Assembly (NCBI GenBank): GCA_030220185.1
Contig: JASPKZ010004202.1
Span: forward strand, 2,112,001 to 2,176,000
Length of the DNA stretch: 64,000 nucleotides
Direction: 5' to 3'
From: Diploptera punctata
Lineage: Eukaryota > Arthropoda > Insecta > Blattodea > Blaberidae
Part shown: one piece after another, positions 1 to 53,555 of the stretch
How positions within the stretch are numbered: the stretch's first letter is position 1
How the letters are laid out: each line of letters opens with the position of its first letter
Notes under the pieces: generated by a model
What the model was told of the DNA's origin: nothing
Seen by the model: the letters and a program-made list of their open reading frames with translations, nothing else
The model's database searches: none
Translations under genes and position numbers: made by a program

Positions 1-530
1 TATCAATTCTTATTAACCAGAACGCTAGTTTAAAATTTTAGGATGTAAGAGACTGCCAAACTTTACCATCTTTCAGAAACAAATTGAAAATAAAATTATT
101 AACAGAAACAACTCACTAATATTACTTTTTAAAAATTAATAATGTGTTTTTTCATTATTTAATAAAAATAGTTTTAAGATTAGTCAATATATTTACCTAA
201 TGCCTCGTATAATAAGCGATAGATTAATTCATTATAGTTTATTACTTTCTTTGTATTTTTTCTTTCTTTTCTTTTTATGTATAGTAGATTTGAGCTGTTA
301 TTCCTTTCTGTATTCATTCTATCATTAGTTTAATTTTAATTGTATTTTATTTTATTGTATTATTAGACAATATTTTCATTATTGTTCAATTTGACAGATA
401 ATTAATTCTTTAGTATGACTATTATTGTAATTTTTTATATTTGTATGTAACATATGTTTGTCCTGGTGAGTGGAAGAGAAGGCCACATGGCCTTAACTCC
501 ACCAGGCTAAATAAAATCTATTCTAAATCT
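1..530 (+). mobile_element. LINE-J 3' end (non-LTR retrotransposon)
   Basis: This is the 3' part of a non-LTR element. The first ~140 bases match the end of a coding region also seen at 42.4 kb (FQKQIENKIINRN). A long AT-rich UTR follows, then a conserved box at ~463-508 that starts CCTGGTGAGTGG, contains AAGGCCACATGGCCTT and ends CCACCAGGCTAAATAAA. The same box occurs at 20.5, 29.7, 33.6 and 43.7 kb. The copy runs off the left edge. From 531 to 831 I see only AT-rich intronic sequence. Confidence 0.8.
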
Positions 531-831
531 ACTATTCAGAAGATCTGTTTGTGATAATTGACATTTGTATGTTAACTTATTTCAACTGTAAATTTGTCAG
601 GAAATATTCTGAATAATAATTTGTGAATTTACAATTATTCATTTGAATTATTAATTTTTATTATTTTGTGAATCTCAAAATTCTTCTGAATCATCTCTGC
701 ATGATTTATTAAGGATTTTACAAAAGCCTTTGTAATATAGCAGCCATGAAAATGTTAGCCAGACTTGTTCTTTTATACGGTGATAATTAAATAACGTAGA
801 ATCTCCACTTTTTTCCTTCTAATGTTGGCAG

Positions 832-937
832 GCTTACATCATAGAGCCATTCACATCCACAAGAAGCTAATGTTAAGATTTCCTGATGAACCTGAGCATG
901 CGAATCAACTGGCTGTTACTTACCTCATGATAAACAG
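832..937 (+). CDS. Asph: Asph exon (first one in window)
   Basis: Acceptor TTGGCAG at 831, donor AACAG|GTTTGT at 938. The exon begins with the last two bases of a codon and reads LHHRAIHIHKKLMLRF...NQLAVTYLMIN, the TPR-like segment upstream of the oxygenase domain. It ends in phase 2; the split AG|G codon is completed by the next exon. Confidence 0.85.
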
Positions 938-3900
938 GTTTGTAATAGATTTAATTTTTTTTTTGTGAAACATATACAAAATAATACTAAGGAAAATTGA
1001 CATTAGTAAATACAGCCTGTAAAAAAAATAGTGTGTATGAATTCATGAAATTAGGCCTTTTGGCCTGTTTTCACATCAAGTGGAATTTAATGAATCCTCC
1101 CATCTAGTAAATGGGCGTCCAACATTTCTATGTCCTATTGGTTTGTATTTTAGTAACAGCTGAGGGATTCTATCTGTAGGCATTCTCTTGACATGTTCAT
1201 ACCAGTTGTTTCTCATGTTGTCAATTCTATTTGTTAAATTAAAAATATTTAAGTCCTTCCTAATATCCTCACCTCTTTTCTTGTCCAAAATTGTCACACC
1301 TGCTACTGAACGTAGGAACTTCATTTCTGCAGTTTCTATTTTCCTTCTGTCTGAATGGTTAAGAATCCAATTTTCACTTGCATATGTTAAGACAGGCACT
1401 GCCATAATTTTGTAAAATTTTAGTTGTGTGCTCCTCAAAGTTTTATTATGCAAATTTCTAATTGGATTTTCTTCAATAACTCAAAAACTTTTAAGCCTAG
1501 AAGGATGAAACTTAAGTATAATATTACTTATTATGACATGAATGTGTGTACAAAAAATCAAGTACGTAGCTTAAAAATGTAGAAAATAGAAATTTCACCC
1601 ATCACCCCCCTTAATTGCCCTATTTGTGTCTGTTTAGGATGAAGGAAGCTAAACAAGTGCTAGAGACAACACTGATGCGTTGGCCAAATAATGGATTTGC
1701 TCAAGTTCATTATGGCTTTATTCTAAAAACCAACGATAATAACTACACGGCAGCTGTCAATTATCTGTCTCAAGGTATTTCTTCAAGAGAGCCAGGCACT
1801 GTGGATGGACGTTTCTTCTTTCAGTTGGGTGATGCTCTCACTCGACTTGGTCGTCATGAAGAAGCTGTAGAGGTAGATAACTACATTATTTTGAAAAGAA
1901 AAATTAACGCTGTTAATAAATTAATGTTTTTATTACCTCACCTCATATCCTTTTTCTTCTAGACTGCAGTTTTGGAGCTTATCTCCATCATCAGTAGCCT
2001 CTGGTCAACCGGTGTTATGTTGTTTCTTGGCGGTTTTCTTTTTACTTCTATCAGTGGACCGATGAACCTCTGGATCAGGTCAAAATTTGCTTGTGTTTAG
2101 AAATTCATGAGTTTATCTTTCTTGTTTTTTTGGATGTGGATTTTTTCCCAGATCGTGAGTTCTTTTTGTTTATCTGTGTGTTTGATTAGGCTAGCTTTTG
2201 TATCGATTAAATGTTTTTCAGACCAAGCATGGGTTGCTACAGCTGACTTGTCCACTTTACCCTTTTTTACATTTCTAAGGTGTTCTTTCAATCTAGTTTT
2301 TAAATTTCTTTTTGTTTTTCCTATGTAGATTTTGTCGCAATCCTTACATTTGATCTGATATATTCCTGATTTGTATTCTTCTTCAATTTTTTCATGTTTA
2401 AAAACTAGATGGAAAGAACACCTTAGAAATGTAAAAAAGGGTGAAGTGGACAAGTCAGCTATAGCAGTCCATGCTTGGTCTGAAAAACATTTAATCGATA
2501 CAAAAGCTAGCCTAATCAAATACACAGATAAACAAAAAAAAACTCACAGTCTGGGAAAAAATCCACATCCAAAAAAACAAGAAAGATAAACTCATGAAAT
2601 TTTGACCTGATCCAGAGGTTCATTGGTCCACCGATAGAAGTAAAAAGAAAACCGCCAAGAAACAACATAATACCGTGAAATTAAATGTTTCTTACCTCTC
2701 CTCATATTAATTACTAAGTTGATCGCGATTTCGAGACTATAACTGTCTCATCATCAGAACTTTGTTGGCGACTGGTGTTATGTCGATCGGAAGAAACTCT
2801 TCTTCTTCCCTCTGTTGGTGGACCGATGAACCTCTGGATCCCGCAAATTTTGACCTGATCCAGAGGTTCATCGGTCCACCAACAGAGGGAAGAAGAACAG
2901 TTTCTTCCGTTCGACATAACACCAGTCGCCAACAAAGTTCTGATGATGAGACAGTTATAGTCTCGAAATTGCGATCAACTTAGTAAATTAATATGAGGAG
3001 AGGTAAGAAACATTTAATTTCACCATAAATTAAACCTCATAGTGATTATTTCCTATAAAAGTTAAACATAACACCGGTCGGCCAGAGGTTACTGATGATG
3101 GAGATAACCTCTGAAACTGCAGTCTCGAAGAAAAAGGGTATGAGATGAGGTAATAAAAACATTAATTTAATTCTTAAATTAAACCTCATAGTGTTCCTTC
3201 CCTGTGAAAGTTAAATAAATGCTGTTAATGTTCAAATAGTGTACCGTTCATGTGAAAGAGTTTGAGGTTAAGTTATGTCTGACTTGATAAGTTGTTTGTT
3301 GTTTAGATATATGAGCGAGGGGTGAAAGAAGGTCTGTTCCTGTCCAAGTATCAACGTTCCTTGTATAATGTGAACCGGCTACAGGCACAACCCTGGTGGA
3401 CACCCAATGAAACAACATATCGTGAAAATTTTCAGTAAGTAAGATTCCATTCTTTGGTTTTCAGATTTCTTTTTGTTTTCCCTGTGTACATTTTATCACA
3501 ATATCCGCATTTAATTTGGTAAATTTTTTAGTCGTGTAATTACTGAAGATGTAATCACTAAGGTTACAGTGTAATTAGATATATATAAGATGAGGTAAAA
3601 ATAATTTTATTTTAAATTAAATCTCATAGTGATATTTTAACTTACAATACTGTTTAACTTTGCACTTGAAAAATATGAATCCTGAAACTATCTGGACTGA
3701 AAATTCTAGCCAGTAATTGCAAGAAAATTATCTATCGAGGAACGATAAATGCAAGGTTTTTTTCTCAAAGTTTAAATGTGATTAGTACAGGGACTATAGA
3801 AATTCAATGGTGAATCCAGGAAAAGGATAAATATGTAGGTAGGAAATAACACTATGAGGTTTATTTTAATTTTGTTGAGTTGTTTCTTGACTCACCTCAT

Positions 3901-6900
3901 ACTTCTTAACTCCCTCACAGATCCAGATTTCGTTACTGTATTTGTGACATTCTCAATGCTGTTCACGTTCACAACTGACGTCCAGTGGTCAGTCTGCAGG
4001 AGAGGAGACCATTGGACATCAGTTGTGAACATGAACAGCATTGAGAATGTCGCAAATACAGTGACAAAATCTAGATCTGCAAGGGAGTTAAGAAGTATGA
4101 GGCGAATCAAAAAAAAAAAAGAAAAAAGAATGACAAAATTGAGTTTCACTGTAATTGATTTTCTTTCTATTATAATGTTCGGATTTTTCTTTTTAAAATA
4201 CTTATCTGTTTTTCATAAGTTATCTATTTATTTTTGCTGTTTTCCCATGGTTCTTCTTCTTCTTCTTCCTTCCAAGTATTGGGCCAAGGCCTGTTACGAT
4301 CCTATAGAAAATTTTCCCTCTAGCATTTCATAGGACAGCCCAGAGATCTTCGTCCTCTTGGTATATAATTATAAACAGCTTTGGGGATCCGATTTGAACT
4401 CATTCTTTCAAGATGGTAATTTTAACAAATGCCACAGTGAAAAATGTGAAACATTGATTATTTGATTGTTATTTATGTATACTATTGCAGAAAGCTGCAG
4501 GATAATTGGCAACAAATTAGAGCTGAAGGGTTGGCAGTTTTAGCTGGCAAAGTGTTCAAAGATGAGGCTGAGAATCTCAAACAAGTTGGAAACTGGAAAC
4601 AATTTGAATTATATGCAAGAGGTATGTTTAACAATTAAAAATATATATATATACATTTAAAAATGAATAACATTGTACATTAAATTCTTTGATATCTGTT
4701 AATAAGAAACATTTAGTCCCAATTAACATACAGAGTGTCCCAAATTGATGTATACCCTCTTTGAAACTTTATTTCTCAGCGACGAAATGAGACAGAAATA
4801 CAATTTTTGTTGTGTATGATCCGCAAGGCACTGGAAAAGCATAGCAACACGTTCATCGATCTTCATGTGTTTTATAAACAACAATGGCGACGAGATTATC
4901 ATTCAATGAACGTAAGTAGATACTGAAGTGTTATTGGGAAGTGGTGATTGTTGTTGAAGTGCAACAACGTTGGATGGTTGAATTTGGGGCACCACCACCA
5001 CAAGGGTAACAATAACAAGAATCCGAGACAAGTTTGAAGACGATGCAACAGTGCTCTCGTTATCAGTCGGACGTCTCTTTCTTCCGCACCGACCTTTCAA
5101 CACATCTTGCATCGTTCCATCATCTTCAACCTTGTCTCAGATTCTTGTTATTGTTAGCCTTGTTGGTGGTGGTGTCCCAAATTCAACCATCCAACGTCGT
5201 TGCACTTCAACAACAATCACCACTTCCCAATAACACTTCAGTATCCACTTACTCTCATGTAATGATAATCTCGCCGCCATTGTTGTTTATAAAGACGTGA
5301 AGATCGATGAACATGTTGCTATGCTTTTCCACTGCCTTGTGGATCAAACACAACAAAACTTGTATTTCTGTCTCATTTCGTTGCTGAGAAATAAAGTTTC
5401 AAAGAGTGTATACATCAATTTGGGACACTCTGTATATTTAATGTGAAAAAATTATATTTTTAATGACTCACCTCATATAATTTCAAATTTCTTTGATACC
5501 GGTGGTTTCAGACAACATCTTGTCCCTCTTCAGTCATGGCTTCCACTGAAGAGGGACAAGATATTATCTGAAACTGCCGGTATCAAAGAAATTTGAAATT
5601 ATATGAGGTGGGTCGTTAAAAATATGTTCTCCACTCACTATTAATGATATAATCTCATAATGTTTACTTCCCAATATTAATTTAAATGTATTTTCTTACC
5701 TCTCCTCATACAAATCTTCTAAGTAGACTTAGAAGATTTGAGAGATAAGAAACATTTGATTTTACCGTAAATTTTTCTCTTCAAATATAATGCTAATATT
5801 GTTGTAGCATATAGCACTAAGAATATTTTTATAATGAATAAACTATTCTCCTGCACATCACTATAATAGTGGACAGAATATAATTATATTTTTGGTACAC
5901 ACAGTTAATGGAGAAAGCTGAGATTAACTTCACTTTTAACGATGAACCTTGAGCCAGTAACAAAACGGGCTGTAGTAGAAAGGTAAGGAGATTTTTGAAG
6001 TTCAATCAAATTTACACATAATTTTGAGTAATTAAACATAAACAGGAAGATAGTTTTATTATTAAAAAAATATTAATCAACAAGATATGACACTATCAGG
6101 TAAATATAGACAAAATTTAATCAGAAATTTTACACCTCTACCTCAGATATAAATTTTTTTAGGATTAAATTAAAATGTTTTATACCTCACCTCATATACA
6201 GTCTTGTAACTAGACTGGTTTCAAAACCTGGGCAGCTTCATCTTCGGTAATTTCTCGTCGACTGATGTTATGTTGATCAGAAGAACTGCTGCTTCCTCCC
6301 TCTGTTGGTGGACCGATAAACCTCCGGTTCAACTCAGAATCCGCTGGAGTTTCGAAGTTCATAAGTTTTTCTTTCTTGTCAAATTGTGCTCTCTCTTATC
6401 AAGGAACTGTCAACTATTGCATGCTGAAATCTACCTAGAAATTTCTTTCAGAAAAGCTTTGTGATATACAAAGGCCATATATAAAAAAAAAAAATCTGCC
6501 TTTTTAAATGCAAGGCACTAAAATCCAGTGCCAAATATCTTATTTAAACTATGGGGAAATAATACAACACCTGAGTTGGTAGATTGGATAACCCTCACTA
6601 CCTGCCTCACTTCACACCACTCTTATTCATGCAGGGAAACCATCTGCTCTACTTTGGGTTGACATTGCTGGATTCTGGCTTTGACTTTTTTGCCTTGCTT
6701 CAATATGGAAAGAGATTAATAGTGAGTGGAGAACATATTTTTAACGACTCACCTCATATCATTTCAAATTTCTTTGATACCGGCGGTTTCAGACAATAAA
6801 TTGTCCCTCTTCAGTCATGGCTTCCACTGATGAAATTCTCTGAGAGTCGTTAAAAATATGTTCTCCACTCACTATTAATGATATAACCTCATAATGTTTG

Positions 6901-9253
6901 CTTCCCAATATTAATTTAAATATGGAAAGAGATATTGATTCCAAAATAAATACATTTCAGACGGTATGTGGAACAATGCAGAGAATGTTCAAAAATAAAA
7001 CTAAAAAGGGAATAAAAGTAAAAATGTATAAAGTTATGGCAATTCCAACAATATTGTGTGGGTGTGAAACTTGGACTCCAATGAAAAACAGAAAAATATA
7101 TACGACAGTGACAAGGTTCCTCATACAAGTTAAGGGATGTATAAAACTTGATATAATTAGAAATGAGGATATAAGAGAAGAATTGAAAGTGCAGCTTTTA
7201 TTGGATAAGATGACAAATTATAGACAAAAGTGGATTGGTCACATGAATGGAATGAGTAAGGAGAGATATCCATTGTTAACAAGAAATTATTTATTAAGAT
7301 ATGGTAGTGAAGCATGGACAATACGAAGAAGAGATGAAAGCTGAATAACAGCAAATGAGATGCGATTTATGCGCCGTACACAAAGTGGGACCATAAAAGA
7401 AATGATAAAATTATGGAAGAGTTGGATGTAGAACCCATTCTTCACCATATACAAAACTACCAGAACAACTGGAACACCCATCTTCAACAAATGCCATCTC
7501 ATAAAATTCCAAAAGCCATACTTCGTTATTGCCCCCAAGGCAAAAGATTGCTGGGACGTCCAAAAAAGCGCTGGATGGAAAATTCCTCTTTGAGACCGTA
7601 ACAGGCCACACGGCCTAATACTTGCATGGATGATGATGATGAACAAGAAATTATCAAGCAAGAGGAAGATGTGATGTCGGAAGACCTAGGAAACGTTGGG
7701 CTGATGCATTATGATATCGGAACGGATAATTGCCTAATCCTTGGAGTGACGATGATGATAATATTTTTTTTGGACATGGCCTTGGTACATCACGATGCTT
7801 CTCTGGGAGAAATTTGAAGGTAGGTTTCGACGTGCATTGGTTCCCTTTTAAGTACGAGAAGTTTATTTTGAATTTTTGTAGGGAGGAAGATAACATCGAA
7901 CTGTATGAAAGCTCCATTTACTTGCAAGTTGATAAGCGAGTTTCCTGCTGCTCGTGACTGCCGCCGTGGCCAAGTCAAATTCAGTGTGATGCAAGCAGGA
8001 ACACACGTGTGGCCACATTGTGGTCCCACCAACTGTCGACTACGATCTCATCTTGGTCTTGTTGTCCCACAAGGCACTTACATCAGAGTTGCTGAAGAAA
8101 CAAGGTAAGTTAATTTTAAAATTCATCGGAGAACATATTGTTTAAACAACTCACCTCATAGGATTCATGCTTCCATGATATCGCGATTTCAAACATAGTC
8201 ATGTTCATCGTCAGCCATAACTCCGACGATGAACATGACTATGTTTGAAATCGCGATATCATGGAAGCATGAATCCTATGAGGTGAGTTGTTTAAACAAT
8301 ATGTTCTCCGATGAATTTTAATGATTATACCTCATAATGTTTACTTCCCAACATTAATTAAATATAAGTTAATTTTGTTTAGTTGTTTCTTGACTCGCCT
8401 CATACTTCTTAACTTCCAAGCAGACTCAAGTTTTTTCACTTCATTTGTGACATTCTCAATGCTGTATTACTTTCACAACTGATGTCCAACGGCTTCTTCT
8501 CCTGCAGACTGACCTCCACGCCATCTGATGGCTGACCGACGAACTTCCAAATCAATCCCCTCTCCTTATCATCGGGTATTTCAAAATTCATAGTTGTGTT
8601 TTTATTCTTGTATATGTAAATTTTTTTCCCAAATTGGAAAAACTGAAGGAACTCACAATTTGGGAAAACATTTACATATGCAAGAATAAAAACATAACTA
8701 TGAATTTTGAAATACCCGGTGATAAGGAGAGGGGATTGATTTGGAAGTTCGTCGGTCAGCCATCAGATGGTGCGGAGATCAGTCTGCAGGGTAGGAGGCC
8801 GTTGAACATCAGTTGTGAACGTAATACAGCATTGAGAATGTCACAAATGAAGTGAAGAAACTCGAGTCTGCATGGGAGTTAAGAAGTATGAGGCGAGTGA
8901 AGAAACAACTGAACAATATGTTGTACTAAGCTAACAGTGTATGCAAAGAAAAGAAAGAAAAAAATGTTTTCGTGGAAATGGATAGTGGCTTTACAGACAT
9001 AGTTTTACATTCTAGTGCATTGACCACTACACTTCTTTTGGTTGGAAATTTTTCCCTCTCTTACACAAACCCACGCGAATAAATGATGTTTATATTTTTC
9101 AGATCATGGGAGGAAGGCAAACTTTTTATATTTGACGACAGCTTTGAACATGAAGTGTGGCACAACGGAACAAGCGTGAGACTTGTTCTTATTGTTGATG
9201 TGTGGCATCCGGAGCTGACATTAGAGGAAAGAAGGACCTTGCCTGCCATCTAA
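832..9253 (+). CDS. Asph: Aspartyl/asparaginyl beta-hydroxylase, C-terminal six exons (5' end outside window)
   Basis: Six exons (832-937, 1638-1872, 3307-3434, 4491-4621, 7882-8104, 9103-9253) join in frame to 323 residues plus TAA. The family hydroxylates Asp/Asn in EGF-like domains in the ER, using Fe(II) and 2-oxoglutarate. Visible features in order are TPR-like helices (exons 1-2, HYGFILK, DGRFFFQLGDA), the linker QPWWTP (exon 3), WKQFELYARGRK (exons 4-5), CRRGQVKFS, THVWPHCGPTNCRLR with the first iron histidine, and DDSFEHEVW with the second, then RLVLIVDVWHPEL and RRTLPAI at the stop. This matches the vertebrate ASPH C-terminus end to end. All introns are GT-AG. As known for the family, the usual acidic metal ligand is absent. 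The N-terminal membrane anchor and upstream TPRs must lie left of the window. No inactivating change is seen despite the heavy transposon load in every intron. Confidence 0.95.
1041..1470 (-). mobile_element. LINE-C fragment, C-terminal coding end
   Basis: The minus strand encodes MAVPVLTYASENW, AEMKFLRSVAG, WYEHVKRMP and VGRPFTRWED, then a stop. This is the tail typical of arthropod LINE reverse transcriptases. It lies in Asph intron 1, antisense to the gene, and is 5' truncated. Related 3' ends are at 13.2 and 35.4 kb. Confidence 0.85.
1638..1872 (+). CDS. Asph: Asph exon, TPR-like segment
   Basis: Acceptor TGTTTAG at 1637, donor GAG|GTAGAT at 1873. It reads MKEAKQVLETTLMRWPNNGF, then VHYGFILK and DGRFFFQLGDALTRLG, closely matching the family's conserved block. 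It ends in phase 0. An ATG-initiated reading from 1615 is an artefact: the first residues lie in the intron, and reading past 1872 runs into intron and a Penelope foldback. Confidence 0.93.
1961..1998 (-). ncRNA. Hammerhead ribozyme motif, decayed
   Basis: On the minus strand CTGATGA is followed by hairpin GGAG/CTCC, then CAAAA in place of GAAA, then CTGCAG and TC. The core A-run has lost its G, so this copy is probably inactive. It belongs to the left arm of PLE-1. Confidence 0.6.
2097..2395 (-). pseudogene. GIY-YIG endonuclease domain of Penelope-like element
   Basis: The minus strand reads SGIYQIKCKDCDKIYIGKTK, then LKEHLRNVKKGKVDKSAV, HAWSEKHLIDTKASLI and ELTIWEKIHIQKNKKDKLMNF. The GIYxIxC...YIGxT pattern with a following KEH is the GIY-YIG nuclease C-terminal to the Penelope reverse transcriptase. 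A short insertion (plus-strand 2083-2097) brings in a stop straight after MNF, so the usual tail is lost. Confidence 0.88.
2400..2600 (+). pseudogene. Truncated GIY-YIG fragment, right arm of PLE-1
   Basis: The plus strand reads TRWKEHLRNVKKGEVDKSAI, then HAWSEKHLIDTKASLIKYTD. It then frameshifts in an A-run near 2535-2542. It mirrors the left arm but begins later (at the KEHL block), so the right copy is more 5' truncated. Confidence 0.82.
2716..2762 (-). ncRNA. Hammerhead ribozyme motif, all core boxes intact
   Basis: Minus-strand order: AAGTT, CTGATGA, stem II GAGAC/GTCTC with a 7-nt loop, GAAA, palindrome TCGCGA, TC, AACTT. Helix I pairs AAGTT with AACTT (5 bp) and helix II has 5 bp. Helix III is a 6-nt palindrome too small to fold alone, as in the minimal hammerheads known from Penelope-like elements. 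Confidence 0.8.
2935..2981 (+). ncRNA. Hammerhead ribozyme motif, right arm of PLE-2
   Basis: This mirrors 2716-2762: AAGTT, CTGATGA, GAGAC/GTCTC, GAAA, TTGCGA, TC, AACTT. The helix III palindrome has one change (TCGCGA to TTGCGA); helices I and II are intact. Confidence 0.77.
3086..3128 (+). ncRNA. Hammerhead ribozyme motif, right arm of PLE-1
   Basis: CTGATGA at 3092-3098, stem II GGAG/CTCT (one wobble), GAAA at 3113-3116, palindrome CTGCAG, then TC. Helix I is weak here. Confidence 0.68.
3307..3434 (+). CDS. Asph: Asph exon, linker to oxygenase domain
   Basis: Acceptor TGTTTAG at 3306, donor CA|GTAAGT at 3435. It reads IYERGVKEGLFLSKYQRSLY, then NVNRLQAQPWWTPNETTY. The QRSLYNV and QPWWTP motifs are diagnostic for the family. 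Phase 2 at the end matches the next exon. Confidence 0.95.
3455..3665. mobile_element. Penelope-like remnant near the intron 3 donor
   Basis: The minus strand at ~3464-3530 reads YQIKCGYCDKMYTGKTKRNL, a GIY-YIG start. The plus strand from ~3535 carries a decayed hammerhead (CTGAAGA, GAAA lost) and the tail GATGAGGTAAAA...AAATCTCATAGTG. It begins only ~20 nt after the splice donor of Asph exon 3. Confidence 0.65.
3850..4112. mobile_element. Penelope-like foldback, tail-only (PLE-3)
   Basis: A ~260-bp inverted repeat with CACTATGAGG at the left end and TATGAGGCG at the right; centre ~3985 at CTGCAGG. Each arm has a hammerhead relative: minus TTGAGAA...CGAAATCTGGATC; plus TTGAGAA...AAAATCTAGATC. 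It lies in Asph intron 3. Confidence 0.75.
4251..4420 (-). mobile_element. LINE-E fragment (3' end)
   Basis: The minus strand reads ...YNYIPRG, GRPMKRW-like, ending ENFL-like, followed by GAAGAAGAAG. It is a shorter copy of the element at 13.8-14.5 kb. A third copy is at 15319-15409. Confidence 0.75.
4491..4621 (+). CDS. Asph: Asph exon, start of oxygenase domain
   Basis: Acceptor TATTGCAG at 4490, donor AGAG|GTATGT at 4622. It reads KLQDNWQQIRAEGLAVLAGK, then NLKQVGNWKQFELYAR. The last base joins GG of the next exon to give Gly. This start of the beta-hydroxylase fold precedes the GRK...CKLISEFP segment. Confidence 0.93.
4731..5432. mobile_element. Tc1/mariner-type foldback with TA duplication
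   Basis: This 702-bp inverted repeat begins CAGAGTGTCCCAAATTGATG and ends with its complement, flanked by TA (4729-4730, 5433-5434). Each arm runs ~330 bp to a centre near 5060. Each encodes the start of a transposase-like protein (left arm MATRLSFNERK, interrupted by TAG, then frameshifted; right arm equivalent). The domain resembles the N-terminal helix-turn-helix of mariner-like transposases. No catalytic part remains. Confidence 0.8.
5448..5690. mobile_element. Penelope-like foldback, tail-only (PLE-4)
   Basis: The inverted arms CTCACCTCATATAATTTCAA and complement meet at ~5545. Each holds a decayed hammerhead (CTGAAGA, GACA/TGTC, GAAA, ACCGG or CCGG, TATC). The tail ATATGAGGTGGG...AATCTCATAATG follows to the right. 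A related single copy is at 6.7-6.9 kb. Confidence 0.7.
5694..5760. repeat. Short inverted repeat of Penelope tail type
   Basis: TTACCTCTCCTCATACAAAT and an imperfect complement around AAGTAGACTT. It resembles the last bases of PLE-2 arms. From 5761 to 6180 I see AT-rich intron with nothing recognisable. Confidence 0.5.
6170..6383 (-). mobile_element. Penelope-like tail, single arm
   Basis: Reading from the right: GPPTEGG-like coding end, hammerhead relative (GAAGATGA...TTGAAACCAGTC), then TATATGAGGTGAGGTATAAA. The tail hairpin partner is mostly lost. It is closest to the arms at 20.16-20.46 kb. Bases 6384-6720 hold no recognised element. Confidence 0.65.
6722..6922. mobile_element. Penelope-like foldback remnant
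   Basis: It begins AACGACTCACCTCATATCATT and retains most of one PLE-4 arm. The second arm is largely deleted before GAGAGTCGTTAAAAATATG and the tail ending ACCTCATAATG. Confidence 0.65.
6925..7290 (+). mobile_element. LINE-C-like coding fragment
   Basis: It reads FQTVCGTMQRMFKNKTKKGI, KMYKVMAIPTILCGCETWTP, IIRNEDIREELKV and KWIGHMNGMSKERYPLLT. This is the GCETWT block of a LINE reverse transcriptase C-terminus, cut at ~7285 where a second LINE fragment begins. Confidence 0.8.
7286..7640 (+). mobile_element. LINE-E-like 3' end
   Basis: It reads LLRYGSEAWTIRRRDES, stop, then ANEMRFMRRT, WNTHLQQMPSHKIPKAILRY, GKRLLGRPKKRWMEN and a stop at ~7600. A conserved 3' end ...TAACAGGCCACACGGCCTAA and a GATGATGATG tail follow. 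One internal stop and a frameshift are visible. Confidence 0.82.
7641..7762 (+). mobile_element. LINE 3' end fragment
   Basis: In one frame it reads RCRRPRKRWADALEY-like, then PNPWSDDDDN, with a GATGATGATGAT tail. This is the end of yet another LINE family, truncated to ~120 bp. Confidence 0.6.
7763..7852 (-). mobile_element. Poly-A retroposon fragment
   Basis: Minus-strand sequence ends ...GGCCATGTCC followed by AAAAAAAA. A matching copy lies at 23728-23830. It ends ~30 bp before the acceptor of Asph exon 7882-8104. Confidence 0.5.
7882..8104 (+). CDS. Asph: Asph exon, first iron-binding histidine
   Basis: Acceptor TTTTTGTAG at 7881, donor AAG|GTAAGT at 8105. It reads GRKITSNCMKAPFTCKLISE, then CRRGQVKFSVMQAGTHVWPH and CGPTNCRLRSHLGLVVPQGT. 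The HVWPHxGPTN block contains the first Fe(II) histidine. The 3.3-kb intron before it is the largest in the visible part of the gene. A poly-A retroposon ends about 30 bp before the acceptor, and a Penelope foldback starts 13 nt after the donor. Confidence 0.96.
8118..8366. mobile_element. Young Penelope-like foldback next to a splice donor (PLE-5)
   Basis: Near-perfect ~95-bp arms (AATTCATCGGAGAACATATTG ... complement) meet at ~8218. A tail ending ACCTCATAATG follows. Target duplication AAGTTAATTTT at 8107-8117 and 8367-8377. The left duplication overlaps the GTAAGT donor of Asph exon 5. Each arm holds a hammerhead relative (GACGATGA, ACAT/ATGT, GAAA, TCGCGA, TA). Confidence 0.8.
8380..8918. 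mobile_element. Penelope-like foldback with C-terminal coding end (PLE-6)
   Basis: A ~540-bp inverted pair. The right arm reads KELTIWENIYICKNKNITMN, then FEIPGDKERGLIWKFVGQPS. The left arm reads the same in reverse but decayed. Each arm ends in a hammerhead relative with palindrome CTCGAG (right arm: TTGAGAA, TCAC/GTGA, GAAA, CTCGAG, TC). It shares its ends with PLE-3. Confidence 0.8.
9103..9253 (+). CDS. Asph: Asph terminal exon, second iron-binding histidine and stop
   Basis: Acceptor TATTTTTCAG at 9102. It reads SWEEGKLFIFDDSFEHEVWH, then VRLVLIVDVWHPELTLEERR and TLPAI, with TAA at 9251-9253. DDSFEHEVW holds the second metal histidine, and the downstream Arg lies in the 2-oxoglutarate pocket region. 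The protein ends at the family's usual C-terminus. Confidence 0.96.
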
Positions 9254-9484: not shown

Positions 9485-9806
9485 AAGTTAAAATATACCA
9501 TCTTAGGTAAAATCCGTCATCCTCAACTTATAAAATATGCAATCTTTATGCCTGTAGGCCTTTCAGAACATCCGTTCCATCTTCAGCAGGTCACTCTTCG
9601 CTACAACATCCAGTATGATGGTTGATGCTGCTGGTCGTGACAAAGCCACATTAGGACCAGCAGCATCAACCATCATACTGGATGTTGTAGCGAAGAGTGA
9701 CCTGCTGAAGATGGAACGGATGTTCTGAAAGGCCTACAGACATAAAGATTACATATTTTATAAGTTGAGGACGATGGATTTTACCTAAGAAGGTATATTT
9801 TAACTT
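9485..9806. mobile_element. Penelope-like foldback with paired hammerhead relatives (PLE-7)
   Basis: Arms AAGTTAAAATATACC and complement; centre ~9645 (GTGACAAAGCCACATTAGGA unpaired). Each arm encodes IILDVVAKSDLLKMERMF and stop. Hammerhead relatives: CTG, CTGAAGA, GAAC/GTTC, GAAA, GGCC, TA, CAG at 9702-9739 (+) and 9552-9589 (-). Bases 9807-10060 are AT-rich, with nothing recognised. Confidence 0.75.
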
Positions 9807-10836: not shown

Positions 10837-10975
10837 TTATATTTGAAGAGAAAATTTTTTTGCCTAGACCGAGACTCGAACCCGGGACCTATGGCTTGCC
10901 GGGCCAAATGCTCTACCAACTGAGCTACCGAGGCAAGTTGCAATCTAGACGCAAATTTTTCTCTTATATATGTTG
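10837..10975 (-). mobile_element. tRNA-like sequence within inverted repeats
   Basis: Minus-strand 10934-10862 is a 73-nt cloverleaf-like sequence: acceptor GCCTCGG/TCTAGGC, D arm GCTC/GAGC, T arm CCGGG/TCTCGG with GGTTCGAGTCT. Flanks AAGAGAAAA and TTTTTCTCTT form an inverted repeat that also takes in the T-arm sequence. It could be scored as a tRNA, but the mismatched anticodon arm and repeated context argue for a mobile element. Confidence 0.65.
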
Positions 10976-10984
10976 TAAACTCAT

Positions 10985-11207
10985 AAAAAATTGTAGACTA
11001 TCACGGCAGGTATTTTTATTCATGTATTTTATGTCTTTCGTGCTAAATGGCCGTGGTCTGGTTTTATTAACTCTCGACGTTTCGTCTACTACTGCGGTAG
11101 AATCTCAGAATCTCCTGAGGATGTCTACCGCAGTAGTAGACGAAAACGTCGAGTTTTAATAAAACCAGACCACGGCCATTTAGCCCGAAAGACATAAAAT
11201 ACATGAA
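10985..11207. mobile_element. Foldback element with 9-bp target duplication
   Basis: ~85-bp arms (ATTCATGTATTTTATGTC...) meet near 11113. Target duplication TAAACTCAT at 10976-10984 and 11208-11216. The central GAGGATGTCTACCGC is like a tail of a further Penelope-type family, but no ORF confirms this. Confidence 0.7.
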
Positions 11208-16868: not shown

Positions 16869-17005
16869 TAAGATAAAAACTTAAAACGTGTACCTTTTTG
16901 GCAGGTGCCGTCTTCTTCAACTATGTTAAAATATCTGGAGGCCTTTCGGAAGTTAACTTCCATCATCAGCAGGATGAGCTTCTGCTACTAGTTGCTGTTG
17001 TTGTT
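16869..17005 (-). mobile_element. Tail-only Penelope-like insertion with intact hammerhead
   Basis: 137 bp, with target duplication ATTACTTA at 16861-16868 and 17006-17013. On the minus strand it carries the hammerhead motif, then GAAGAAGACGGCACCTGCC and TACACGTTTTAAG. This shows how short a Penelope insertion can be and still keep the ribozyme. Confidence 0.82.
16935..16972 (-). ncRNA. Hammerhead ribozyme motif, best conserved core
   Basis: Minus strand: CTG, CTGATGA, stem II GGAAG/CTTCC around TTAA with one base before it, GAAA, GGCC, TC, CAG. Helix I is CTG/CAG, helix II has 5 bp, and helix III is the palindrome GGCC. All conserved core bases are present. Confidence 0.82.
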
Positions 17006-20160: not shown

Positions 20161-20462
20161 AGCCAGCTATACAATCGTATTCTAACCACACCGGTTTCAA
20201 AGCTTTGGCAGCTTCATCTTCATTACTATCTCGTCGACTGATGTTATGTCGATCAGAAGAACTGCTTCTTCCTTCCTCTGTTGGTGGACCGATGAACCTC
20301 CGGATTAACTCAGAATCAGTCGACGAGAAATTATTGAAGATGAAGCTGCCCAGACTTTGAAACCGGTCTAGTTAGAAGACTGGATATGAGGTGAGGTATG
20401 AACCTATTAATTCAATCTTAAATTAAACCTCATAGTGATTTTTTCCCTTTAAAAGTTCAATA
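20160..20462 (+). mobile_element. Penelope-like foldback (PLE-9)
   Basis: Left arm ACCGGTTTCAAAGCTTTGGC..., right arm GCCCAGACTTTGAAACCGGT. Centre ~20290 at GGTGGACCGATGAACCTCCG. The right end ATATGAGGTGAGGTA...AACCTCATAGTG is complete. Its hammerhead relative has GAAA, palindrome ACCGGT and TC, but the CUGAUGA box is decayed. Confidence 0.7.
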
Positions 20463-20622: not shown

Positions 20623-20773
20623 GATAAATCATATTTGAAGAGAAAAATTATACGCTCAGACCGGGACTTGCTCAGGTAGCTCAAATGGTAGAGCACTTGG
20701 ACTAGAAATCCAAGGGTCCCGGGTTCAAGTCCCGGTCTGAGCGTATAATTTTTCTCTTCAAATATGATTTATC
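20623..20773 (+). mobile_element. tRNA-like palindrome element, cleanest copy
   Basis: A 73-nt cloverleaf-like core at 20670-20742: acceptor GCTCAGG/TCTGAGC, D arm GCTC/GAGC, anticodon arm TTGGA/TCCAA with loop CTAGAAA, T arm CCGGG/CCCGG. The left flank is a perfect inverted copy of the T arm, 3' acceptor and AT-rich right flank (arms 20623-20670 and 20723-20773, ~48 bp). The loop would read AGA (Ser), but the class I variable loop is wrong for tRNA-Ser. A true tRNA gene is the alternative. Confidence 0.7.
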
Positions 20774-48689: not shown

Positions 48690-49145
48690 ATTTGATTTTC
48701 ATATTTATTAAGATATAATTCAGTGACAGCTGTTTCGGTACACTGTACCTTCTTCAGACATGTTAACAAATTATGAATTGTGTTCCAACTGATCTAAGCA
48801 GCAATACAACAATGATTTATTTAAATTTTTTAATTTAACAAAGGCGATTCATTCAAATCAAGTTGAGAATTTAACAGTTTATTACTACTTTTCAGTTTAT
48901 TTATTTCTACAGCCTCCAAAAGATCTAACTTCTTACCCTTATCACAAACATGTAAAATTTCAAAATTTGGATCGAAACAATGATTAAATTGGAATAGGTG
49001 GTTAGCATATTTTGAATATTCTAAATTTCTGTTATATGCTCTCATGTGTTCCTTTATCCGAGAGATAAAAGGTCTACCAGTTTGTCCTATATAGACATTG
49101 TTACATGTGCCACACTTCAATTTATATACACCTGATAATTATTTT
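48690..49145 (-). mobile_element. Penelope-like element end with GIY-YIG domain (PLE-11)
   Basis: Minus strand: MKCGTCNNVYIGQTGRPFIS, RIKEHMRAYNRNLEYSKYAN, HLFQFNHCFDPNFEILHVCD, KGKKLDLLEAVEINKLKSSN, stop, then a hammerhead relative. VYIGQTGR...RIKEH is a clear GIY-YIG signature; this subfamily differs from the others here. Confidence 0.87.
48722..48760 (-). ncRNA. Hammerhead ribozyme motif, one core change
   Basis: Minus strand: CTGAAGA (T to A in the core), stem II GGTAC/GTACC around AGT, GAAA, palindrome CAGCTG, TC, AC. Stem II and helix III are perfect. Confidence 0.68.
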
Positions 49146-50298: not shown

Positions 50299-50413
50299 TA
50301 TAGGAAAAATAAATGTTCGTTCTGGATTCGCCTGGTAGCGTAAGTGATAGCGCACTGATATATCAACTCAGAGGTCCGGGTTTAAATCCCGTCCAGACAT
50401 TTATTTTTCTTAT
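50299..50413 (+). mobile_element. tRNA-like sequence within inverted repeats, third type
   Basis: Core with TCTGGA/TCCAGA acceptor-like pairing, GGTAGCG...GATAGCGC, box B GGTTTAAATCC. Flanks TAGGAAAAATAAATG and CATTTATTTTTCTTA are inverted. The same layout as 20623-20773 with different AT arms. Confidence 0.6.
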
Positions 50414-51663: not shown

Positions 51664-52745
51664 ACTTCACTTACTCACTGGCACTATCGAACCCGTAGGT
51701 TCATGGCCGCGCGGACATAAGCTCTCCATACATCCCTATCCTAAGCTAATGCTTTGCAATCATTCCCTGTATAATCTACTTCCTTCAAATCATAGTTAAT
51801 GTTATTCTCCCACCTCATTCTTGGTCTACCAACTGGGCGTTTTCCCTCTGGCTTTCTACAAGAAGCTTCCACTCACGTCTTTCATTCCCCATTCGTGCTT
51901 CATGTCCTGCCCATCGCAGTCTACGAGACTTAACTTTTTTCATTATATCTGGCTTCCTATAAAGACCATGTAGTTCACTGTTATGTAGTCTTCTCCATTC
52001 ACCTGTCCGTTCATCTCTCTTTGTCCCAAAAATTTTCGCAAGTACTTTATTCTCAAATACTCGTAATCTGCTTTCCTCCCTTAAAGTAAGAGTCCATGTT
52101 TCGCACCCATGTAATATGACTGGTAGAATAATATTTTTATATATTTTCAGTTTAACATTTTTTTTAAAGAGTTGGGACGTCAAGAGTCTCTGTAATGCAT
52201 AATAGCACGCATTTCCAGAATTGAGCCTATGTTTAATTTCTTTGTGCATCTCATTCCTATTTGTGATTATTGTTCCTAGGTATTTGAATTCAGCCACTTC
52301 CTCAAAATTTCCCTCATTTGTCATTAGCTGTCCATTTTCATTAGGCCTATATAATGTATTTTCTACGTGTGACCATATATTTAGTTTTATTGATATTTAC
52401 TTCCAGTCCTAATTTTTTAGTGTTACTCAATAGTGTGTGCGTGTTGTCCTTTAGTATCTCCTCGCTATCGGCCAATAGTACTACATCATCAGCATAAACT
52501 AACAGCTTATTAATACAATTGAGTTGTAAGCCTTGCTCATTCTCTAAAGATTTAACGGCATGCTCTAGTACAAAATTAAATAGTAGAGGAGATAGTGCAT
52601 CTCCTTGCTTCAACCCATTCTGGATTTCAAAAGTGTCCGAAAACTGTTTGCCTACACGCACCCTACTCTTTCTGCCATTTAGACACATTCGTATAAGTCT
52701 AACTAACTTTTTAGGAATTCCAAACTCCGAAGAGCGTCTCTCCGT
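51664..52745 (-). mobile_element. LINE-A, longest copy, with reverse transcriptase palm
   Basis: Minus strand: FGIPKKLVRLIRMCLNGRKS, FEIQNGLKQGDALSPLLFNF, KLLVYADDVVLLADSEEILK, LGLEVNINKTK, MTNEGNFEEVAEFKYLGTII, NSGNACYYALQRLLTSQLFK, ILHGCETWTLTLREESRLRV, ending with the tail at 51664. LKQGDALSPLLF and YADD are the motifs around the catalytic Asp pair. Two or more frame breaks, so inactive. Confidence 0.92.
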
Positions 52746-53555
52746 GGTTAATTATGTAGGTCATGCAGAACCTACTCTAACTGGCTCACTCTGTTCAACA
52801 TCATGTGATTTTTATTAAAAAAAGTTTCCGGGAACAATTGAAAGATGGGAGCCTCAGCTTACGGAAGACTGAGATGGCGTGGCCTAGAGAGCTTGGTTCT
52901 TGAATATCGGCCTTAAACATATTGGTGGTTTGCTGATGGACGATTCCGTGACTCCGTCAGTTTAAAAATCTACCTCCATCATTTTGTTGAGTAATCTGAT
53001 TTCATAATGGATACTGCATTATTACAGAAATAATGGAAACGCACGCGAAACCAGGATTTTGGCCATAATCAATATTTGTTCTGACATGCAGACTTTACCT
53101 CCATCTTGACAGTTTTGATTTATAACTGTTAAAGGATTCTACGTATTTTCATTGTTATTCAATTCACTAATAGACACTTGAAGCTTTTGTCATTTTAGTT
53201 CTTTACAAATCTGAAATCTTTTTTTAAGTGTTGTGAATCAAAAACCAATGACAGCTCACTTAAATAAGATGATTTATAATCTTTGCATTCTGTTCCAATG
53301 ATTGTAGCCTATTAAACGTATTGTGAAGAATTACGGACATTGTTACCAACCTTTCTCGAAACTTCTGTTTCCGAAGGTCTCCCACAACACATAATAGAGG
53401 TATAAGCTCGCTTCTTTAAAAAGTTGGTTATGTTTTTGTTCGGTTTTATTTTGAGAAACTTTGAACACTTTCGTGGACTTATATCGCGTATGTCTATAGT
53501 TTTGCGCATTTTTTTAATCTTCTTCTTCTTGCAAGGAATGAACATTTTTGGTTCG
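52746..53555. other. No recognised element
   Basis: Mixed-composition DNA. A minus-strand open frame (53593-53312) overlaps the MITE and has no recognisable domain. Confidence 0.3.

Follow-up and report, generated by a model that had tools for sequence, protein, structure and literature searches.

Penelope-like elements in the Diploptera punctata genome carry short motifs that, judged from their sequences, are the known Penelope-type minimal hammerhead ribozyme, predicted to act as a dimer and distinguished in this genome by one additional nucleotide ahead of helix II, and these elements are inserted as head-to-head pairs of arms of which nearly always just one bears a tail. The overall explanation that we consider probable joins minimal type I hammerheads, in which helix III would form between two RNAs, to a scheme in which two RNAs serve one insertion. 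The conserved pairing, with its register, and the anatomy of the insertions are direct observations. The ribozymes add members to a known group, and it is the insertion anatomy that matters more: that an insertion almost always pairs a tailed arm with an untailed one gives a new handle on how Penelope elements integrate.

Hammerhead motifs in the window and their structure

Two intact motifs were found in PLE-2, a near-perfect palindrome of inverted arms (family A; about 2671-3066) that is nested in another element, PLE-1, in the window, the 64,000-nucleotide stretch of DNA analyzed, which comes from an assembly of 3.12 Gb. PLE-2 has the duplication AACATAA(T/C)ACC at both ends (seven bases exact, the rest by eye). 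One motif occupies its untailed arm (2716-2762, minus strand, predicted cut between 2721 and 2720) and the other its tailed arm (2935-2981, plus strand, predicted cut between 2976 and 2977), and both were identified by pattern, covariance model and dimer fold. Each contains CTGATGA, one extra T, the hairpin GAGAC/GTCTC, GAAA, TC and a six-nucleotide self-complementary sequence, which is TCGCGA or, with G.U pairs, TTGCGA; the perfect helix I AAGTT/AACTT described in an earlier sequence-only reading was borne out at both sites. The tail of PLE-2 (3024-3066, plus strand) is present in one arm only and starts in the loop of the terminal hairpin (TTTAATTT/AAATTAAA).

PLE-1 (about 1917-3215), a head-to-head 5'-truncated Penelope-like insertion recognized by its inverted arms and GIY-YIG sequence, has an untailed left arm on the minus strand and a tailed right arm on the plus strand, the tail being assigned by homology to 3008-3066. 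The sequence-only reading had listed four motif sites, of which the two in PLE-2 are intact and the two in PLE-1 are broken, each differently, because helix I was lost in one and the G of GAAA in the other. At 3086-3128 (plus strand; pattern match; model match 3082-3134, 31.8 bits), the core and CTGCAG are intact, with helix I reduced to one pair and helix II reading GGAG/CTCT with a G.U pair. The hairpin GGAG/CTCC, which had been offered as the alternative hairpin, belongs to the decayed copy at 1961-1998 (minus strand; read from the sequence; model match 1952-2004, minus strand, 20.0 bits), whose GAAA reads AAAA.

A loose hammerhead pattern matched nine times in the window as against 1.84 expected, a count reached by none of 100 shuffles, and with pairing of helices I and II required there were nine window sites compared with a mean of 0.01 over 100 shuffles; one of these paired matches, at 11115 (plus strand), has a helix III of 3 nt and may be a chance match. 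Pattern and model together identified family F hammerheads as a head-to-head pair at 5487-5592 (5487-5543, minus; 5536-5592, plus) and a family D hammerhead at 48717-48767 (minus; helix III CAGCTG, helix I of only two pairs), whose motif recurs in L027, one of the loci fetched from the genome. The pattern with pairing, along with the model, identified a further family F hammerhead (6768-6824, minus), family J hammerheads within 9545-9746 (9545-9596, minus; 9695-9746, plus) and a family K hammerhead (16928-16979, minus; helix III GGCC). A family B palindrome with a right-hand tail (8116-8364) contains a hammerhead at 8169-8224 (minus) and, at 8211-8268 (plus), an arm without the start of the core; a mini-palindrome of the family A group (5692-5773), recognized from repeats, has its axis near the predicted cut and has lost the core; and a pair within 20179-20378 (20179-20233, minus; 20324-20378, plus) was found by model matches alone.

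A covariance-model search with the Rfam hammerheads, which the sequence-only reading had put forward as a check, did not go its way: there was no match in the window at the gathering score and none at E values up to 10 in positions 1-6000 or 2925-2995. The Rfam families that were listed were unrelated, being mostly microRNA-family hairpins under gathering scores, plus tRNAs. This miss is read here as a gap in the Rfam models, and because the Rfam hammerheads gave no match, the structure was tested independently of them. A covariance model built on the MAFFT alignment A1 from 14 motifs of this genome, three of them from the window itself, matched 20 window sites at E < 0.05.

Because alignment A1 is imperfect in helix III, pairing was tested in anchored segments. 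The set was drawn from the window and the loci fetched by then and comprised each CTGANGA that had GAAA 10-24 nt after it and, farther downstream, an ATGAG-like anchor, irrespective of pairing; its 100 matches formed 21 clusters. With one nucleotide skipped after CTGANGA, 88 of 105 possible helix II pairs were formed, as against a mean of 66.7 and a maximum of 78 when partners were permuted 5000 times, while skipping zero or two nucleotides gave no signal in the 21 clusters. As helix II pairs in the +1 register only, the extra nucleotide before it is general in the cluster set. The hammerhead of chrysanthemum chlorotic mottle viroid reportedly likewise has one additional nucleotide separating A9 from helix II, but that is a viroid RNA and the nucleotide is reportedly an A, whereas here it is mostly T (U). 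Helix I gave a pairing sum of 39 compared with 25.0 for permuted partners, a value reached in 28 of 5000 permutations; in many clusters this helix is weak. Of the 21 clusters, 10 show a perfect palindrome after GAAA, versus 32 of 1089 GAAA sites in the window, so it is absent from some clusters.

The motifs thus combine the CUGANGA...GAAA core and NUH cleavage triplet of type I hammerheads with three helices in type I order, helix II being strong, helix I weaker and helix III available only between two RNAs, and they have the self-complementary helix III of Penelope-type dimeric hammerheads, though not in every cluster. When seven motifs were cofolded, helix II was retained and helix III formed between the molecules for both PLE-2 copies (eight pairs) and for J, which gave a double hammerhead; B and H gave a mixture of intermolecular helix III and other pairs, and for K and D the preferred fold was an extended duplex unlike a hammerhead. 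Retrozymes, which are non-coding units with two tandem hammerheads, were considered and rejected, as the inspected copies occur singly or as head-to-head pairs and have coding elements as relatives.

Position 7 is the single free core position in hammerheads. In family A (64 arms of 32 palindromes), variation averages 0.021 over 12 core sites and is 0.587 at position 7, and the extra T is invariant. Flank sites average 0.046, and when they were drawn at random 2184 of 20000 draws came out as low as the core, so that low core variation by itself is weak evidence. The terminal base pair of helix I changes between T-A and A-T, with the same state in both arms at 32 of 32 loci. The earlier suggestion that these copies are functional or recently functional stands only as a statement about conservation, in that 42 of the 64 family A arms keep a motif that is intact by our criteria.

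Minimal hammerheads of Penelope elements are described in passages of two reviews as having type I order, a minimal or absent helix III and a palindrome for dimer formation (PMC6155905; PMC6466107). As far as those passages go, the dimer-cleaving Penelope hammerheads (Cervera and De la Pena, 2014; Lunse, Weinberg and Breaker, 2017) resemble the present motifs in order, helix III, palindrome and location in Penelope elements and differ in that the clusters here carry the extra nucleotide between A9 and helix II.

Head-to-head insertions and their single tail

Arm pairs were scanned automatically in the window and 115 loci, a set that excludes reverse and nested locus copies, L131 and L132; the genome searches behind these loci took the best 40 candidates each, and nearly all measured pairs are of family A. 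The scan yielded 78 distinct family A pairs plus seven duplicates, and with two pairs cut by a locus end, 76 were scored. One tailed and one untailed arm were found in 70 of the 76 automatically and in 73 after three had been read by eye: in L125 one side is untailed, although the alignment had extended into the duplication there, while L041 and L042 each combine an untailed arm with an arm whose tail is cut short. The exceptions, all from the mini-palindrome query, are L059 with two tails and L058 and L074 with none. By query, 33 of 35 pairs were one-tailed automatically with the first, which lacks the tail (the other two being L041 and L042), 14 of 17 with the mini-palindrome query (one of them, L056, a duplicate), and 24 of 25 with the third, which contains the tail and so demands one (the remaining pair being L125). 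A repeat scan with a fuzzy duplicate check gave 79 pairs, 71 of them one-tailed, the extra pair being L056; the figure of 70 of 76 was retained because L056 is, by eye, the same locus as L055.

Outside family A, 11 palindromes were considered, nine from a listing of palindromes, after L029, which is tRNA-like, and a couple of overlapping rows had been set aside, and another two from the window, and 10 of the 11 had exactly one tail by the automatic test. With L027 left uncounted for having only nine flank bases on one side, and window palindrome 6752 read by eye as one-tailed, the count becomes 10 of 10 scorable.

The target duplication flanks the whole head-to-head unit, the longest stretch shared by the two flanks having a median of 12 bp in 60 listed units and being at least 8 bp in 49 of the 60, as against 5.25% with re-paired flanks; this list was made by hand from pairs already one-tailed and bears on the duplication, not on the tail rule. 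Inverted pLTR-like arms with an optional tail, together with a target duplication, place these insertions among Penelope-like elements. Available passages on Penelope of Adineta vaga (PMC3846280) likewise describe inverted pLTRs with an optional tail at one, duplications of 8-10 bp and junction palindromes, and the present insertions share inverted arms, a tail on one, short duplications and palindromic junctions. Self-priming on antisense RNA was proposed there, according to the same passages, unlike the two-template reading favored here.

By overall sequence identity the partner arm does not stand out, being strictly nearest in 21 of 64 cases with five ties, and lineage marks were used for that reason. 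At 32 of 32 loci both arms carry matching marks (with a gap at position 7 in one L035 arm). Junction sequences vary between loci, with filler in some, as in L059, and short self-complementary overlaps in others, as with GATC in L055, while L071 is joined without overlap. Six mini-palindromes (L060, L062, L063, L065, by eye, L066 and L067) share a junction through AAATC/GATTT self-complementarity, which suggests annealing of two cDNA ends.

Some of this anatomy is what would be expected if the palindromes arose when a single cDNA, or an antisense RNA, folded back and primed itself, so that only one RNA would be used, as proposed for rotifer Penelope and discussed in the available text of PMC3846280. 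The arms are head-to-head with short spacers, both arms are of one lineage at all 32 loci, and some junctions have self-complementary overlaps (GATC in L055; AAATC in six loci). However, annealing of two cDNAs would also give such overlaps, and simple fold-back puts the tail in both arms, yet 73 of 76 pairs are one-tailed; the filler in L059 and the overlap-free join in L071 also argue against it. Fold-back is therefore regarded as unlikely.

Several pairs of loci have the same flanks (L004/L005, L039/L040, L055/L056, by eye, L066/L068, L071/L072 and L095/L108) and are probably uncollapsed alleles in the assembly.

Copy starts and the templates used for insertion

Where copies begin relative to the predicted cut was read in a tail-anchored genome search, of which the best 40 of 636 candidates were scored, all 40 being full-length matches. 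Thirty-seven of these were newly fetched, the other three being the window, L013 and L053, which had already been read, and the 37 tailed arms represent 36 loci, as L095 and L108 are apparently a single locus. Of these 37 arms, drawn from the best 40 of 636, not one starts exactly at the predicted cut. All reach past it, five of them extending beyond the fetched stretch, and the nearest starts are at -3 (L122) and -6 (L111). Among the 25 untailed partners seen to their outer end, that of L097 starts at -4 and that of L114 at +3, and the untailed partner of L119, seen in L132, starts within about 2 nt of the cut; it is possible that L122, L097, L114 and the L119 partner began at the cut and have a few matching bases. 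Of 62 arms, 15 begin a little upstream of the hammerhead, between -56 and -36, and five of these (L100, L101, L102, L111 and L120) begin at or near a common GTCGCCAAC. A scan with 18 motif templates gave no pile-up at the cut, with one end at 0. With no tailed arm of the 37 starting at the cut, the insertion templates appear to have been mostly uncut RNA.

The opposite reading, that hammerhead-cleaved RNAs are the usual templates and the ribozyme sets the 5' end of copies, draws on the earlier loci, in which 6 of 49 truncated arms start exactly at the cut, and on the few arms of the tail-anchored set that start within 4 nt of it. The six exact starts are all in mini-palindromes (both arms of L058 and L071; L059; L061), whose query had its axis at the predicted cut, and in the same 49 arms starts at -4 (six), -11 (five) and +8 (six) are equally common. 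A footprint of cleavage in vivo, promising in the mini-palindromes, failed in the tail-anchored set, in which no arm of 37 starts exactly at the cut and all extend past it, and cleaved RNAs as the usual templates are thus quite improbable.

Mostly uncut templates are also a feature of Poseidon PAc of Anolis carolinensis (Frangieh et al., 2024; PMC11167929), for which the available passages describe two adjacent starts of reverse transcription with the tail between them and, in vitro, extension of both DNA strands with uncut RNA as the main template. The present elements are similar in having two start sites with the tail between and in their mostly uncut templates, which here are read from insertions. 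In those passages, the start sites used by PAc in vitro are alike between strands, whereas here nearly every insertion has one of each, and the PAc hammerhead overlaps the start of the frame, whereas that of L044 overlaps its end (PMC11167929). An optional tail at one inverted pLTR, two adjacent start sites and extension of both strands are thus already described in the portions consulted (PMC3846280; PMC11167929), and the passages from the open-licence literature gave no figure for the strictness with which the tail keeps to a single arm.

The near-rule of one tail, the single lineage of each pair and the mostly uncut hammerheads together argue that two templates and two start sites are used in a coupled manner. 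In the scheme that we favor, two RNA copies of one lineage would serve a single insertion, and a staggered cut would supply two primers. The start of one cDNA would lie at the far end of the tail and that of the other within the terminal hairpin's loop, some 40 nt farther upstream; most cDNAs would continue through the uncut hammerhead and end at various points, and their free ends would then be joined head to head. The ribozyme itself, with less certainty, would cut other transcripts, such as tandem co-transcripts, rather than the template RNAs. In hammerheads of this kind, helix III has too few pairs to close by itself and would form between two RNAs through the palindrome.

The palindrome and the need for two templates gave rise to the idea that the ribozyme dimer supplies both RNAs. 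As a speculation to which we give only a small chance, the palindromic helix III might be primarily a dimerization signal that holds two RNAs of the same lineage in one particle, with self-cleavage held back there and used elsewhere. If this were true, one cDNA would be primed at the end of the tail and the other at the internal hairpin, and the one-tail rule would be explained. That the palindromes are instead ready-made units spreading as such is very improbable: many loci are near-equal in length, but the search query favored that length, and junction sequences vary between loci while lineage marks agree within them.

Two copies have lost the hammerhead. An apparent start at -1 in L094 was rejected when the sequence was read, as the copy has its hammerhead deleted, and L046 is similar. 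Both ends of the deletion lie at the base of helix I (L046:3493-3670; L094:41-131), as if reverse transcriptase had skipped the folded hammerhead.

Coding context and neighboring sequence

The assignment of the hammerheads to Penelope-like elements, made in the sequence-only reading, is backed by GIY-YIG domains, by pairing and palindromes across clusters and by the variation at position 7. GIY-YIG domains above the Pfam cut-off, placing the motifs in a Penelope-like location, were found in L044 and at 2112-2399 (minus) of the window, a fragment of the PLE-1 endonuclease (PF01541, E = 6e-10). A GIY-YIG-like frame at 48830-49138 (minus; E = 3.9e-4) is under the cut-off, and the family D hammerhead lies downstream of it. 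The motif had been placed between the coding end and the terminal hairpin, which does not hold in the longer relative L044, where its sequence coincides in part with the final codons and stop codon of the endonuclease frame. The two long arms examined contain only short frames, the family A copies in the comparison lack their 5' ends, and the fetched loci include no full-length element.

Because the L044 motif reads in frame through to the stop, its core might be conserved for the acidic SSDDE end of the endonuclease rather than for RNA structure. In the codon phase taken from L044, however, third positions in the core (U4, the extra U, G12 and A15.1) vary by 0 to 0.09, and the third position at hammerhead position 7 varies by 0.587; in family B the same phase stops within the core (by eye), yet GAAA, the palindrome and helix I continue, and helix II pairing is kept across clusters. 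Conservation for protein coding is accordingly most unlikely.

Downstream of the motif, many copies share ATGAG and then GTRAG (L044:4519-4977; window 2992-3000), which looks like a start codon with the 5' splice site of a next tandem copy.

Exon-like stretches at 830-940, 1640-1870, 3310-3430 and 4490-4620 of the window may be parts of an aspartyl beta-hydroxylase gene, which they resemble in by-eye translation; if they are its exons, the insertions would sit in introns of that gene. A further large inverted repeat at 4711-5452, with ends like CAGAGTGTCCCAAATTGATGTATACCC, has no Penelope features by eye, and frames with a YADD motif at 51815-52751 (minus) are, by eye, probably a fragment of a non-LTR reverse transcriptase. 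Rfam tRNA matches at 10861-10934 (minus), 20670-20743 (plus) and 50329-50400 (plus), together with a tRNA-like stretch seen by eye within the L029 palindrome, suggest the presence of tRNA-derived repeats.
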